NCBI GenBank assembly: GCA_913061265.1
Contig: CAJXVS010000003.1
Span: forward strand, 496,001 to 560,000
Origin: an uncultured Halobacteriovorax sp.
GTDB taxonomy: Bacteria > Bdellovibrionota > Bacteriovoracia > Bacteriovoracales > Bacteriovoracaceae
DNA length: 64,000 nt
Reading direction: 5' to 3'
Under the pieces are notes generated by a model that saw nothing but the letters and a program-made list of their open reading frames with translations, ran no database searches and was not told where the DNA came from. Shown here in pieces: positions 31,337 through 36,447 of the stretch (positions within the stretch are counted from its first letter, which is position 1; every line of letters starts with the position of its first letter). The translations under genes and the position numbers were made by a program.

Positions 31337-33910
31337 GTGTCAAAAGCTAAATTCAATAAGATTACTATTGAGGGTGCGAGGACAAATAATCTCAAAAATA
31401 TCAATCTCAATATCCCCTTAAATAAAATTACCTGTATTTATGGTCCATCAGGATCTGGAAAGTCTTCCTTAGCTTTCGGCACCCTAGTCGACGAATCTAA
31501 AAGAAGATTTATAAACAGCCTCCCCAATGACATTAAATTCTTGTGGAATATTCCACCTTCAGCAGATGTGGATCTTATTGAGCCGGTTCTCCCTGTTTGG
31601 TCTCTTTCACAAATCAATCCGGTTATAGGCTCAAGACCTGTAGTCGGCGATTTACTTGGAGCTACAGAATTACTTTCTAGAGTCTTTTATTTATTTGGCG
31701 AAAAGCGCTGCTCTGTCTGTCATGGGAAGATCATTAAGTCTTCTTTACAAGAATCAATGGAAAAGTGGGTAAAGAAACAGCCTGAAGAAGCGGTCATTCA
31801 CTTTCTTATTCAAAAGAGTATCTATGAGGCTATCGCTCCAATTGCTCATCCGGTTAGAGGGGCGAAGTCCGAAAAAGGAATGGTTAAGGAATTTGAAGAA
31901 GATTTTGAGTTTTGGGAAGTAAATAGAGCGAAAAAGAAAAGCTACTTAAAAGGTATTAAGAAATTAGAAGAGTTCTTAGGCGCCCATAAACCTCTTATTG
32001 TTATAAAATCGGGTAACAGTAGGTCGGCTTTTAAGTATCAGGCTTCAGGTAGTTTTTGCTCAAACTGTGAAACGACCTTTGATATTGGAGACTTTAGAAC
32101 AGAGAATTTTAATCCTTTATTGGCCTCTGGGGCTTGTTCTGACTGCGATGGTTTCGGCCAAAAGTTGGAATATGACTTAAGTAAGATTGTTAAAAATGAA
32201 ACTCTCACATTAGAGGAGGGAGCGATCCCACTTCTAACTTATAAGCAGTTTTCACATTTATTAGGGGACTATAAGAAAGATCTAAAACAAAAGAAGATTG
32301 ACCCTGATCAAACCTTTTCAAGTATGCCTAAATTAAAATGGGAGTTACTCGAGAAAGGTGGGAAACACTTTTGTGGCCTTGGTGAAATTTATTCTTACTT
32401 TGAGAGAAAAAAATATAAGAGAAGTATCAGAATACTTTCAAGAAGACTTAAAACAGAAAGCGAGTGCACAACTTGTCATGGTTCACGATTAGCTTCCAAT
32501 AAAATTGCTCTACTTGTGAATGACGTACCCTTTAAAGAGGTTTTAAAGGGGAAGGTTAGAGATATTTTAGAACTCGTAAAAGGTTATGGAATTGCCCCAG
32601 ATCTTTCATTTAATAAATTAGTTTTCACTTTAGAGGTCGCCTGTGAACTGGGGCTTGGTAACTTAGTTCTTAGCCGAAAGGTTAAGTCTCTCTCTTCAGG
32701 GGAATATCAAAGACTACTTCTTGTTAAAATACTGGCTCAACAAGGAACGGGAATGTTATTTGTTCTAGACGAACCTTCAAGAGGGTTATCTTATGAAGAG
32801 CAAAAAAAATTAATGGAAAAGATTAATGCTCTCAAAGATCAAGGAAATACTATAGCTCTAGTGGATCACTCTGAATTTGTTCAAAAAGCTAGCGACTACT
32901 TAGTCAAAATGGGACCTGGTGCAGGAAACCTAGGTGGCCAAGTTGAGTCTATAGAAAAGAATACAAAAAAGAATCTTAAATTACCTAAGATTATAGAGGT
33001 AAAACTTAATTCTAAAACTTATCTTGAAGTTATAAATGGAAAAGTACTTGATAGAGAGTTTGGAAATATCCGTTTACCTCTAAATGCAGTTACATGGGTC
33101 TTAGGTGATTCCGGATCAGGAAAGTCCCTCTTTTTTAAACATCTTCTCTATAATGATCTTGAATTAAAGCATACTGGCATTAGACTCTTTGATCTGCCTT
33201 ATAGTTATAGAAAGTTCCATTCAACTAGTGTGGTCAAGAAAGTAAACTACTTTGATCCTGAGTTAAGGACTTCAAGTTCTAGGTCAACGGTAGGTACCTA
33301 TCTCGGTTTTTCTGAAATAATCAGAAAGCATTACTCCTTATTACCGATTTCTAAAGCCCTTGGGCTTGGAACAGGTCATTTCTCTCCAAATTCTGAGCTA
33401 GGTAAATGTACAACTTGTGATGGTCGAGGAATGCTTGAAGTTGATATGCAATTCTTAGAGAACTTAAAGATTATTTGCGAAGACTGTGATGGAAAGAAAC
33501 TAAAGCGTGAAGTCTCTAATATTAGTGACGGAATATTTATGGTAGATGAGGCTTACAACCTCCCTCTTATCGATGTGCTTAAGAACTACAAACTAACACC
33601 AAAGTTTTTTAAACTTTTTGAATATACCAAGACACTAAATCTTTCTCACTTATCGTTATCTAGAACTTTAAAAAGCCTCTCTGGTGGAGAGAGGCTAAGG
33701 CTCCAGTTTTTAAAAAACTTAAATCTAAAAGCTAATGGTGAAATCTTCATCTTTGATAACTTATCGATTGGCCTTTCCTCTCATGAGTTACGTGGTATTT
33801 GCGAAATCATTGAAGAGTTAAAGAAGAAAAGAAATACCGTTGTGATTATAGATTCAAACCCCTATTTCTCTAGCCTGTCGGATAATACTATAAATTTCAA
33901 TAACTTATAG
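31337..33910 (+). CDS. Divergent UvrA-like ABC ATPase
   Basis: 857 residues with the UvrA layout: Walker A GPSGSGKS (36-43), cysteine pairs for zinc (CSVC; CSNC...CSDC), signature LSSGEYQRLLL, Walker B FVLDEPSRGL (Asp478, Glu479), then the second half with Walker A GDSGSGKS (about 590), zinc module CTTC...CEDC with the VDMQFL stretch, signature LSGGERLRL, and Walker B IFDNLSIGL (Asp807). The catalytic Glu of the second site is Asn808. It is shorter than canonical UvrA (about 940) and poorly conserved around the sites, so I call it a paralogue and not the main excision-repair UvrA. GTG start after AGGGGA. Confidence 0.85.
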   Translation: MSKAKFNKITIEGARTNNLKNINLNIPLNKITCIYGPSGSGKSSLAFGTLVDESKRRFINSLPNDIKFLWNIPPSADVDLIEPVLPVWSLSQINPVIGSRPVVGDLLGATELLSRVFYLFGEKRCSVCHGKIIKSSLQESMEKWVKKQPEEAVIHFLIQKSIYEAIAPIAHPVRGAKSEKGMVKEFEEDFEFWEVNRAKKKSYLKGIKKLEEFLGAHKPLIVIKSGNSRSAFKYQASGSFCSNCETTFDIGDFRTENFNPLLASGACSDCDGFGQKLEYDLSKIVKNETLTLEEGAIPLLTYKQFSHLLGDYKKDLKQKKIDPDQTFSSMPKLKWELLEKGGKHFCGLGEIYSYFERKKYKRSIRILSRRLKTESECTTCHGSRLASNKIALLVNDVPFKEVLKGKVRDILELVKGYGIAPDLSFNKLVFTLEVACELGLGNLVLSRKVKSLSSGEYQRLLLVKILAQQGTGMLFVLDEPSRGLSYEEQKKLMEKINALKDQGNTIALVDHSEFVQKASDYLVKMGPGAGNLGGQVESIEKNTKKNLKLPKIIEVKLNSKTYLEVINGKVLDREFGNIRLPLNAVTWVLGDSGSGKSLFFKHLLYNDLELKHTGIRLFDLPYSYRKFHSTSVVKKVNYFDPELRTSSSRSTVGTYLGFSEIIRKHYSLLPISKALGLGTGHFSPNSELGKCTTCDGRGMLEVDMQFLENLKIICEDCDGKKLKREVSNISDGIFMVDEAYNLPLIDVLKNYKLTPKFFKLFEYTKTLNLSHLSLSRTLKSLSGGERLRLQFLKNLNLKANGEIFIFDNLSIGLSSHELRGICEIIEELKKKRNTVVIIDSNPYFSSLSDNTINFNNL

Positions 33911-33943: not shown

Positions 33944-33970
33944 TAAAGTTATCTTATTTTTATCCGATAA
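33944..33970 (+). promoter_or_regulatory. Sigma-28 (FliA) promoter of the matrixin operon
   Basis: TAAAGTTA (33944-33951), exactly 11 bases, TCCGATAA (33963-33970). This is 7 of 8 in each half of the FliA consensus TAAAGTTT-N11-GCCGATAA. The start codon is at 33983, so the mRNA leader would be only about 5-7 bases. This is the best sigma-28 match in the window. Confidence 0.7.
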
Positions 33971-33982
33971 GAACAGTAGGAT

Positions 33983-34705
33983 ATGAAAAATCAACTACTG
34001 AAACTAGCTATTCTCGTCTTTACACTTTTTGCTACTCAAGCATTCTCTACAATATATATTCCTACTCCACTTGCCGATCAAATTGAAGATTCTTATGGAG
34101 TAGTTAGAGGAATTTATAAAGGCAAAGATTACAAAAAAAATAGTACCGGTGAAATTATCACTGAAGCATCTTTCTCCTTACAGGAAACTTCTGGATTAAA
34201 GCCAGGAGATATAATTAATAAAAATAACTTTAAAGTGACTTTTCCTGGCGGCATTTGGCAGGGGATAAATCATAAGTATTCAGGGTCACCAGAATTCAAA
34301 GATAATGAAGATGTCGTACTTCTTATTCATAGAGGGCCAAATGGTTTTCATCTTTTAAACTTTGGACTTGGTAAGTACAGTGTTGTTAAAAAAGATAATG
34401 AATACGTACTTCAAAGTAGCATCTTTCCGAAAAACTCTAAGATTAGTGGAATACGTCTTAAAGATTTTCAAAAAATCGTTTCTAGTAAATTTGGACATCC
34501 CTTAAGTCAGAATAAAGGTGATAAGTTTGTTTACACTCCTTCAAGAGTAAAAGATCAGAAGAAATTCTCCAGGTCTCCAGCTTCGATTGATGATACAGGT
34601 TCTGAAGATGAAATCCCTTCGAGAAATAGAACAATGTTTTGGTTAATGTTAATTTTATCAGGCCTAGGAACTCTTTCTTATCGACTCTTTAATAGGAAGG
34701 GATAG
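33983..34705 (+). CDS. Secreted/anchored protein paired with a matrixin protease
   Basis: 240 residues. Signal peptide MKNQLLKLAILVFTLFATQAFS, a beta-rich extracytoplasmic domain (residues about 25-150) with VVRGIYKG, FPGGIWQG and the GSPEFKDNEDVVLLI segment, a polar linker, and a C-terminal membrane helix (FWLMLILSGLGTLSYRLF) ending in RKG. I do not recognise a named family; the FPGG...G.P.F...E.V.L pattern resembles small secreted domains found beside matrixins, which is recollection and not a search. It lies eight bases before the protease gene and shares its promoter. Confidence 0.75.
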   Translation: MKNQLLKLAILVFTLFATQAFSTIYIPTPLADQIEDSYGVVRGIYKGKDYKKNSTGEIITEASFSLQETSGLKPGDIINKNNFKVTFPGGIWQGINHKYSGSPEFKDNEDVVLLIHRGPNGFHLLNFGLGKYSVVKKDNEYVLQSSIFPKNSKISGIRLKDFQKIVSSKFGHPLSQNKGDKFVYTPSRVKDQKKFSRSPASIDDTGSEDEIPSRNRTMFWLMLILSGLGTLSYRLFNRKG

Positions 34706-34713
34706 TTTTCTTT

Positions 34714-36447
34714 ATGAAATATATTATTACTCTTCTTTTCTTTCTAACTACGGAACTATTTGCTTACACAATTAGTAGAGGTAGCTTTGGCGAAGAACTT
34801 TATTGGAGTAATACAAATCAAATCGTCTATCTAAATACCGCAAACTCAAGTTTAGTTACCAGCACTAATATGAATGCAATTGTTACAGCATCAGCAAGTG
34901 AATATGCTTCGACGGGAATTAATATAACGAAAGTAGAGACTAGCTCTGGTCCGTCTAATGGTCGAAATGATATCTATTTTACCAATAGTAGTTCCGCCTT
35001 TGGTGGAAATAGTGTTCTTGCTTTGACTAAAGTATCTTTCGCTGAGAGTACAGGTATTATCCAAGAAGCTGATATCTTGATAAATGATGCTATTTTCTTT
35101 AGCTCAACAAAAGGTTCTGGGAACTATCTAGGCGACTTAATTAGTCATGAGCTTGGGCATTTTGTAGGACTAGGTCACAGTCAGGTCCATGGATCAACAA
35201 TGTTTTTCTCAATATTTAATGGCCAGGACACTTTGCATTCAGATGATGAAGCAGCAGTTAAACATATTTATTCATCAACAACTGAGCTCTCTGGAACGGT
35301 TGCCGGTGGCGCAGGAATTGGAATCTTTGGTGCTCATGTTCAAGCTATTTCATCTACAGATGGTGAAGTAAAAGCATCTACTGTAAGTGAAGCAGATGGA
35401 TCATTTGTGATTTCCGGCTTATCAAATACTGATACCTATTACGTATACGTTGAACCACTTGAGGCCATAGAAAATCATTCGAGTTTTTATAGTACAGCAA
35501 GAAGAAACTTTTGCGTTTCTCAAACAAGTTATAGAGGTTCTTTTCTAGAGTCTTGTAGAAAATCCGAAGAAGGAAAGCCTCAAGGTGTTGTCATGAACGG
35601 AACAAGCCGAAATGTAGGAACAATCACTATTGGTTGTGACCTTTCTGTTCCCGTTTCCTACATGCAAAATAAACCGAGTACTCTTAATCAACTTAATATT
35701 GTAGATGTCTTTGGAAATACAGGTGAAGCTACGACTGGATACTTTACTTCAACTCAAGCGACTAACAACGAATTTGATGAATACGAAATAGATTTATCAA
35801 ACTACGCAGTCCCAACAGGTGACATTTACCTAGATATAAAGTTGGTGTCTCAAAAGCTTTACTCGCCAGTACGAGTAAGCTTGTCATCGGTTACAGAAAC
35901 AATTGAATATGAAACGGTTGCTGATGGTAATGGGTTAAGGTTTGATAGCGATGGAAATATTGATCTTGATATTGTTGGAAGAATAAAGCTCTCAGCAGTG
36001 TCAGCTAACAACATATTTCGATTCAAAATTACTCCTGAAGCTTTATCTGACTTTATTGTTGGAAAACCATACTCAGTTGATAGTTTTTTACCAACAAGTA
36101 GTTTTTATAAGGACGATCTGAATTTCTATATGATGATCATGACTGTTAGTAAAAAAGAGTTAGGGGTCTTTACGAAGGTTTCTGAAAAAAAATACAACTA
36201 TCAAAGCAATGACACCTGTCTTGATGGACCAGCTTCATATTCTGTTGCACAAGGTACTCAGACAAAATCTACTGCTCTTCAAGAATTGGAAAAGAGAAAG
36301 AATAAAGAGGATCCAACAGTTTTAAGCTGCGGCACAGTAGAGTACCCAAAAGGTCCTGGTTCTGGCGGAATGAGCTTTATCTTCGCTTTTGCTATCGGAC
36401 TTATGGCCGCATCTGTCTTAAGAGGTTTTAAGTCACAAGATTTTTAG
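34714..36447 (+). CDS. Secreted matrixin-type zinc metalloprotease
   Basis: 577 residues. Signal peptide (MKYIITLLFFLTTELFA), then a matrixin/M10-like catalytic domain with the zinc motif HELGHFVGLGHS (from residue 145) followed by the Met-turn candidate STMFF. Next is a carboxypeptidase-regulatory-like beta domain (about 195-260: LSGTVAGGAGIGIFGAHVQA...GSFVISGL). Further beta-rich regions lead to a C-terminal GPGSGG plus hydrophobic helix and short basic tail, like a surface-sorting or anchor signal. Probably exported and cell-surface attached. A predatory role is inference. Confidence 0.88.
   Translation: MKYIITLLFFLTTELFAYTISRGSFGEELYWSNTNQIVYLNTANSSLVTSTNMNAIVTASASEYASTGINITKVETSSGPSNGRNDIYFTNSSSAFGGNSVLALTKVSFAESTGIIQEADILINDAIFFSSTKGSGNYLGDLISHELGHFVGLGHSQVHGSTMFFSIFNGQDTLHSDDEAAVKHIYSSTTELSGTVAGGAGIGIFGAHVQAISSTDGEVKASTVSEADGSFVISGLSNTDTYYVYVEPLEAIENHSSFYSTARRNFCVSQTSYRGSFLESCRKSEEGKPQGVVMNGTSRNVGTITIGCDLSVPVSYMQNKPSTLNQLNIVDVFGNTGEATTGYFTSTQATNNEFDEYEIDLSNYAVPTGDIYLDIKLVSQKLYSPVRVSLSSVTETIEYETVADGNGLRFDSDGNIDLDIVGRIKLSAVSANNIFRFKITPEALSDFIVGKPYSVDSFLPTSSFYKDDLNFYMMIMTVSKKELGVFTKVSEKKYNYQSNDTCLDGPASYSVAQGTQTKSTALQELEKRKNKEDPTVLSCGTVEYPKGPGSGGMSFIFAFAIGLMAASVLRGFKSQDF

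Follow-up and report, generated by a model that had tools for sequence, protein, structure and literature searches.

A FliA-type promoter upstream of a conserved gene pair for a predicted TIMP-fold protein and a matrixin-family protease in Bacteriovoracaceae

A FliA-type promoter sequence precedes two adjacent genes for exported proteins in the window, the whole 64-kb stretch of DNA from an uncultured Halobacteriovorax sp. analysed here. All features lie on the + strand. The -35 element TAAAGTTA (33944..33951) and the -10 element TCCGATAA (33963..33970) each match the sigma-28 consensus at 7/8 positions, scored against an E. coli sigma-28, TAAAGTTT-N11-GCCGATAA-like sequence. Their spacing of 11 is exact, just as a preliminary description of this DNA had read it. 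The site occupies a 72-nt gap behind a same-strand UvrA-like gene (stop at 33910), and no sigma-70-like site at 9/12 lies on the + strand between 33911 and 33983. The first gene, ORF1 (33983..34705), encodes a TIMP/NTR-like anchored exported protein of 240 aa, and the second, ORF2 (34714..36447), a matrixin-family (MMP-like) protease of 577 aa. Together they form the two-gene exported unit that the preliminary description had placed behind the promoter.

The predicted transcript begins close to the start codon. The ATG of ORF1 at 33983 comes 12 nt after the -10 box, and the usual -10 to +1 distance puts the predicted transcription start at 33976..33978. A start 6–8 nt after the -10 box would therefore leave a leader of 5–7 nt, as first proposed. 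The genus-invariant AGTAGGAT (33975..33982) abuts the start codon, with AGGA one base from the ATG of this very short leader. All three members of the genus share both the 12-nt distance and AGTAGGAT. Outside the window's genus the distance is mostly longer, and the near-leaderless arrangement does not carry over there; the predicted near-zero leader is peculiar to the window's genus.

ORF2 is predicted to be an MMP-type protease without a propeptide. In the predicted model, a signal peptide (residues 1–17) is followed by an MMP-type catalytic domain (residues 18–190; 34765..35283) that carries the zinc motif HELGHFVGLGH (residues 145–155; 35146..35178), confirming the intact motif ascribed to this matrixin earlier, and the Met-turn residue Met163 (35200–35202). 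A CarboxypepD_reg-like domain comes next (35287..35454; PF13620, E 1.8e-6, just under the curated cut-off), and a predicted TM helix spans residues 553–573 at the C-terminus. The sequence matched matrixin PF00413 at 3.6e-8, and the model scored Z 16–18 against MMP catalytic domains, among them MMP-8 (18.1) and karilysin (17.9–18.0). Structure alignment pairs ORF2 Tyr18 with Phe79 of MMP-8 and Tyr35 of karilysin, the residues at which those enzymes begin once mature. None of 21 ORF2 relatives departs from the zinc motif or the Met-turn methionine. The position equivalent to residue 18 is Tyr, Phe or His in 18 of the 21 and lies 12–14 residues from a conserved Trp in every aligned member, and no Cys precedes the zinc motif in 20 of them. 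Because the signal peptide runs straight into the catalytic domain and this cysteine is missing, ORF2 is predicted to have no cysteine-switch propeptide and would probably be active once its signal peptide is removed. In an arrangement reminiscent of C-terminal sorting signals, the matrixins (window 36300–36447 and relatives) close with a conserved Cys-Gly-(Ser/Thr), then residues rich in Gly and Pro, a TM helix, and finally a short tail that is often basic. The nearest NCBIfam model for ORF2, a weak one, is NF041905, a myxosortase-dependent metalloprotease family.

ORF1 is predicted to adopt a TIMP/NTR fold. Its layout comprises a signal peptide (residues 1–22), an NTR-fold domain (residues 23–172; 34049..34498), a flexible linker (residues 173–213) and a C-terminal TM helix (residues 214–238) whose basic tail completes a predicted anchor, as in ORF2. 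The model has a mean pLDDT of 89, with values of 52–59 at linker residues 181–210, and shows an NTR/OB-type barrel with packed terminal helices. Foldseek searches of the PDB with this model returned TIMP or NTR domains for all of the best 15 matches, at E-values of only 1e-3 to 1e-2. Z scores (VIA) were 11.1 to agrin NtA (3i70), 11.0 to N-TIMP-3 (3cki_B, 2.9 A over 119 residues), 8–11 to other NTR chains and below 7 to unrelated OB folds. Since NtA ties with TIMP in these scores, fold alone does not say 'inhibitor'. The signal peptide and C-terminal TM helix bear out the original view of ORF1 as an anchored secreted protein, which had missed the TIMP-like fold. That fold shifts the meaning of the operon from a protease to a protease plus probable inhibitor.

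The mature N-terminus of ORF1 is predicted to fall where TIMPs begin. TIMPs start with CxCxP and bind zinc through the amine and carbonyl of residue 1. Alignments of ORF1 to TIMPs mostly open with ORF1 residue 23 paired to TIMP residue 1. At position 22, 56/56 homologs have Ala, Ser, Gly or Cys; 44/56 have Pro at position 27, and the consensus following residue 22 reads TTFxP. The signal peptidase-type residue 22 and the TTFxP behind it thus predict a signal peptidase cut at the very position where TIMPs start; in TIMPs, this N-terminal segment sits in the active site (PMC7277161).

By its predicted model, ORF1 is TIMP-like in fold and is not a TIMP. The domain contains no Cys in 56/56 homologs, so the TIMP cysteines (CxC, six per domain) are missing and the family cannot be called TIMP. 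Searches of Pfam, NCBIfam and the PDB with the ORF1 sequence gave no match, neither a TIMP/NTR profile nor a TIMP chain. Like animal TIMPs, ORF1 has an NTR fold and an N-terminus in the zinc-binding place, both as predicted; unlike them, it has no cysteines, no detectable sequence similarity and no C-terminal TIMP domain, and carries a membrane anchor instead. The same comparison for ORF2 gives an MMP-type catalytic domain in common with animal MMPs, from which it differs in its predicted lack of a propeptide. A lipobox Cys at the cleavage column is missing in 55/56 aligned ORF1 members. By tblastn, phages and plasmids yielded no ORF1, and comparison of the ORF1 model with viral models by Foldseek gave poor OB-type matches only.

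ORF1 and ORF2 form a conserved pair across the family. ORF1 relatives occur at E <= 0.001 in 108 of the 129 family genomes, and both genes in 97 (Fisher p 6e-11). In 96 of these 97 the two share a contig and strand and are separated by -3 to 303 nt; in the last, the pair is split over two contigs. Only three genomes appear to hold the protease by itself. One has a divergent ORF1 relative that overlaps the protease start by a few bases (G022, L179), and in the other two (G058, G027) the contig ends. The protease therefore stands behind an ORF1 relative wherever upstream DNA is present. Conversely, about nine genomes (genus g16, G073, G103 and G121) have ORF1 without a neighbouring protease, most of them with the promoter. 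Short matrixin-like genes of other kinds are found in every family genome.

The pair occupies a chromosomal, syntenic locus and seems to be older than its FliA control. The order is rpsI / UvrA-like ... AMIN-lon, and the UvrA-like protein (857 aa, two ABC halves; window 31337–33910) belongs to the neighbourhood that several genera conserve. Loci that lack the matrixin gene and keep ORF1, AMIN, lon and a FliA-like site were seen in g16 (L068, L073, L082, L084, L085), G073 (L081) and G103 (L182). In other families of the phylum, weaker ORF1 relatives followed by a matrixin were present in 13 of the 20 loci read, some of which are incomplete. A FliA-like site accompanied one of these 20 (L160, 13/16), and the rest were at chance level. 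Promoters there may lie further upstream or differ; if none further upstream was missed, the pair would appear to predate the sigma-28 motif.

The gene distribution fits an enzyme and its antidote, and we regard inhibition of ORF2 as the most likely role of ORF1. The main rival account, which we consider less likely, keeps the promoter FliA-dependent and makes ORF1 an NTR-fold substrate, adaptor or adhesin, with the matrixin cutting the linker so that the released domain becomes the effector. Against it, the predicted signal peptidase site falls exactly at TIMP residue 1 in 56/56 homologs, and a protease never seen without an upstream ORF1 relative where that DNA is present is the asymmetry that enzyme and antidote would produce. 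The account draws on the structural tie between TIMP and NtA, a laminin-binding NTR domain, on the low-confidence linker between domain and anchor, and on the Listeria protein Tim, which is cleaved by Mtz and shed (PMC8235301). It also draws on the roughly nine genomes with ORF1 and no matrixin: an ORF1 kept without its neighbouring protease needs a further function or a different protease as its target.

The promoter upstream of ORF1 is conserved across the family. We scored the best site within 130 nt upstream of ORF1 at 70 ortholog loci, using 1,666 equal-length windows from the same loci as controls. Sites scoring at least 12/16 were found at 86% of the 70 loci compared with 2.3% of control windows, and sites of at least 13/16 at 59% compared with 0.12%. 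The mean upstream score was 12.8, and dinucleotide shuffling of that DNA lowered it to 9.7; the preliminary description had named equal motif frequency in shuffled or coding sequence as grounds for rejecting its proposal. A site of at least 12/16 was present in all members of 27 of the 35 genera, and overall in 27–29 of the 35. The -35 and -10 columns carry 1–2 bits of information and the mid-spacer is near random; the -35 element is kept upstream of orthologs and the CCGATAA core of the -10 is family-wide. Two spacings, 11 and 12, were seen among these promoters. At the protein level these orthologs are mostly 25–40% identical to the window's ORF1, so the motif has persisted as the sequence around it diverged. 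Judged by this conservation relative to control windows, the promoter site is under selection.

The named ORF1 relatives, recovered at 8 loci, are Halobacteriovorax sp., Halobacteriovorax marinus, and Bacteriovoracaceae or Halobacteriovoraceae MAGs; a scan of the genome contigs with the ORF1 sequence alone gave no match. The window's genus shares 64% protein identity with two records labelled Halobacteriovorax sp., and predation by the source organism is presumed from kinship.

Genome-wide, the best matches to the motif sit where promoters should. The 3.97-Mb genome holds 12 sites with up to two mismatches to the full sigma-28 motif, and TAAAGTTA-N11-TCCGATAA is the sole such match in the 64-kb window. 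A 15-base form, in which the first -10 base is free, gave 9 matches with at most one mismatch, compared with 3 for the reversed pattern used as control. All nine are intergenic and lie 7–56 nt before a correctly oriented ORF, for which the base rate at random window positions is 1.8%. At up to two mismatches there was no excess (32 matches, 34 for the reversed control), and 9 of 21 two-mismatch sites examined were still in a promoter-like position. Of the nine best sites, one precedes a flagellin, one a cupredoxin-like gene with cpaF (Tad pilus) behind it, and one the ORF1–ORF2 operon; several more precede genes whose products begin like signal peptides or lipoproteins. Good matches thus tend to precede secreted or lipoprotein genes; the preliminary description had suggested checking for enrichment there.

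Several of these sites mark candidate members of a FliA regulon. The cupredoxin-like gene plus cpaF lies behind L003 (G000:C5:56898-56924), and L006, L007, L009, L010 and L012 precede genes for a Cys-rich protein of 76 aa, two exported proteins (one Lys/Arg-rich, one large) and two lipoproteins. The genome encodes its own FliA (TIGR02479, 265.8 bits, cut-off 189.6), and FliA scores above the curated cut-off in 120 of the 129 family genomes. G071, which is 99% complete and has no FliA over the cut-off, has an upstream score of 11/16; other FliA-less genomes, which are incomplete, score 12–14/16. In several genera (g13, g17, g21, g22) a second sigma factor of the FliA/WhiG class also exceeds the family cut-off. 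Family-wide conservation, correct position, an encoded FliA and the same motif at the flagellin and Tad operon together make a FliA-type promoter upstream of ORF1 well supported, in agreement with the original assignment.

We think it quite improbable that the pair is real and its FliA control minor or absent, with transcription arriving by read-through from the UvrA-like gene or from an unrecognised promoter and the motif surviving as a relic. The short same-strand gap, in which no terminator was detected upstream of ORF1, would permit read-through, and both the unexceptional count of two-mismatch motifs and the distant families that keep the pair without the motif are compatible with a relic. 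Against this stand -35 and -10 elements held strongly beside a near-random spacer in at least 27 genera, and the persistence of the promoter where the matrixin has been lost. That the motif is a functionless chance match has almost no likelihood: its count in the window at up to three mismatches is unremarkable (3 matches, 1.15 expected), and the conservation and positional statistics all run contrary to chance and refute it as far as sequence can.

The reading we favour, and hold to be probable, is a FliA-driven, inhibitor-first protease/TIMP-like pair, in which a genuine sigma-28 promoter serves a two-gene operon and ORF1 inhibits ORF2. Its computed support is the motif, its conservation, synteny, co-occurrence, the predicted folds and the positions of the N-termini. 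In the scheme that we infer for FliA dependence, attack-phase timing, inhibition, zinc-binding mode, trigger and substrate, FliA, active in the flagellated cell, would transcribe ORF1 and ORF2 together. Signal peptidase I would cut residues 1–22 off ORF1, leaving a free Thr23 N-terminus at the edge of the NTR/TIMP-fold barrel, and the C-terminal helices of ORF1 and ORF2 would each tether their protein in a membrane. ORF2 would be exported as a propeptide-less MMP-type protease, in all probability active from the moment of signal peptidase cleavage. ORF1, made first, would most likely bind the ORF2 active site in the manner of a TIMP, with its free N-terminus on the zinc, and ORF2 would stay latent until released at or in prey. 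More tentatively, the pair may be an ancient bacterial one carried by Bdellovibrionota, a tethered Cys-free TIMP-like inhibitor on a born-active protease, to which Bacteriovoracaceae/Halobacteriovoraceae added flagellar sigma control, so that the predator would arm and guard its protease during the hunt alone.

The link with attack phase is by analogy and comes from Bdellovibrio. In Bdellovibrio bacteriovorus, TTAAG-N16-CCGATA occurs in 92 of 140 mapped attack-phase promoters, and proteases are among the FliA targets (PMC3627812). FliA also drives the Tad operon, in predators that follow two strategies (PMC5430801). These studies suggest attack-phase use of the ORF1–ORF2 operon. Both cases share the motif class and a flagellar sigma factor acting on non-flagellar exported proteins, proteases included. 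The ORF1–ORF2 pair belongs to a different family, and its promoter is deduced from conservation, whereas the Bdellovibrio starts were mapped. The literature searched contained no account of a TIMP-like/matrixin pair from Bdellovibrio or related organisms.

Two other bacterial systems place comparable genes side by side. Listeria mtz-tim encodes an adjacent secreted metzincin and a predicted TIMP-like protein, Tim, which is cleaved by Mtz rather than shown to be inhibitory, and its authors found no previous record of TIMP-like proteins from bacteria (PMC8235301). Both loci pair a metzincin with a membrane-anchored TIMP-like protein. In Listeria the protease gene leads, Tim is anchored as an N-terminal lipoprotein, and the locus is associated with phage and under CI/Cro control; here, the TIMP-like gene leads, its product has a predicted free N-terminus and a C-terminal anchor, and the locus is chromosomal and syntenic with a FliA-type promoter. 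The potempin/KLIKK operons of Tannerella forsythia are inhibitor-first protease operons (PMC7296668). The ORF1–ORF2 pair resembles them in having a gene at the inhibitor position directly upstream of the protease, a likeness in gene order only, and karilysin is among the structures closest to ORF2. Potempins, in contrast, are small lipoproteins, and ORF2 ends in SQDF without a KLIKK C-terminus. PotA, from the PotA-karilysin structure (PDB 8b2q), was not among the matches listed for the ORF1 model, which were TIMP/NTR chains.

FliA control of non-flagellar exported genes was known from transcriptomic work on Bdellovibrio; these findings extend it to a second family on evolutionary evidence and name the ORF1–ORF2 pair as a concrete, predicted family-wide FliA target. 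The pair is also a well-conserved addition to a barely known class, bacterial TIMP-fold proteins encoded beside MMP-like proteases. TIMPs have been described as eumetazoan in origin (PMC10755359). Because they are treated as an animal invention, a Cys-free bacterial TIMP-like protein with a free N-terminus at the zinc place would, if true, bear on the origin of TIMP-type inhibition. For the organism, the locus suggests a protease produced along with a built-in safety catch, probably for use in the swimming phase.
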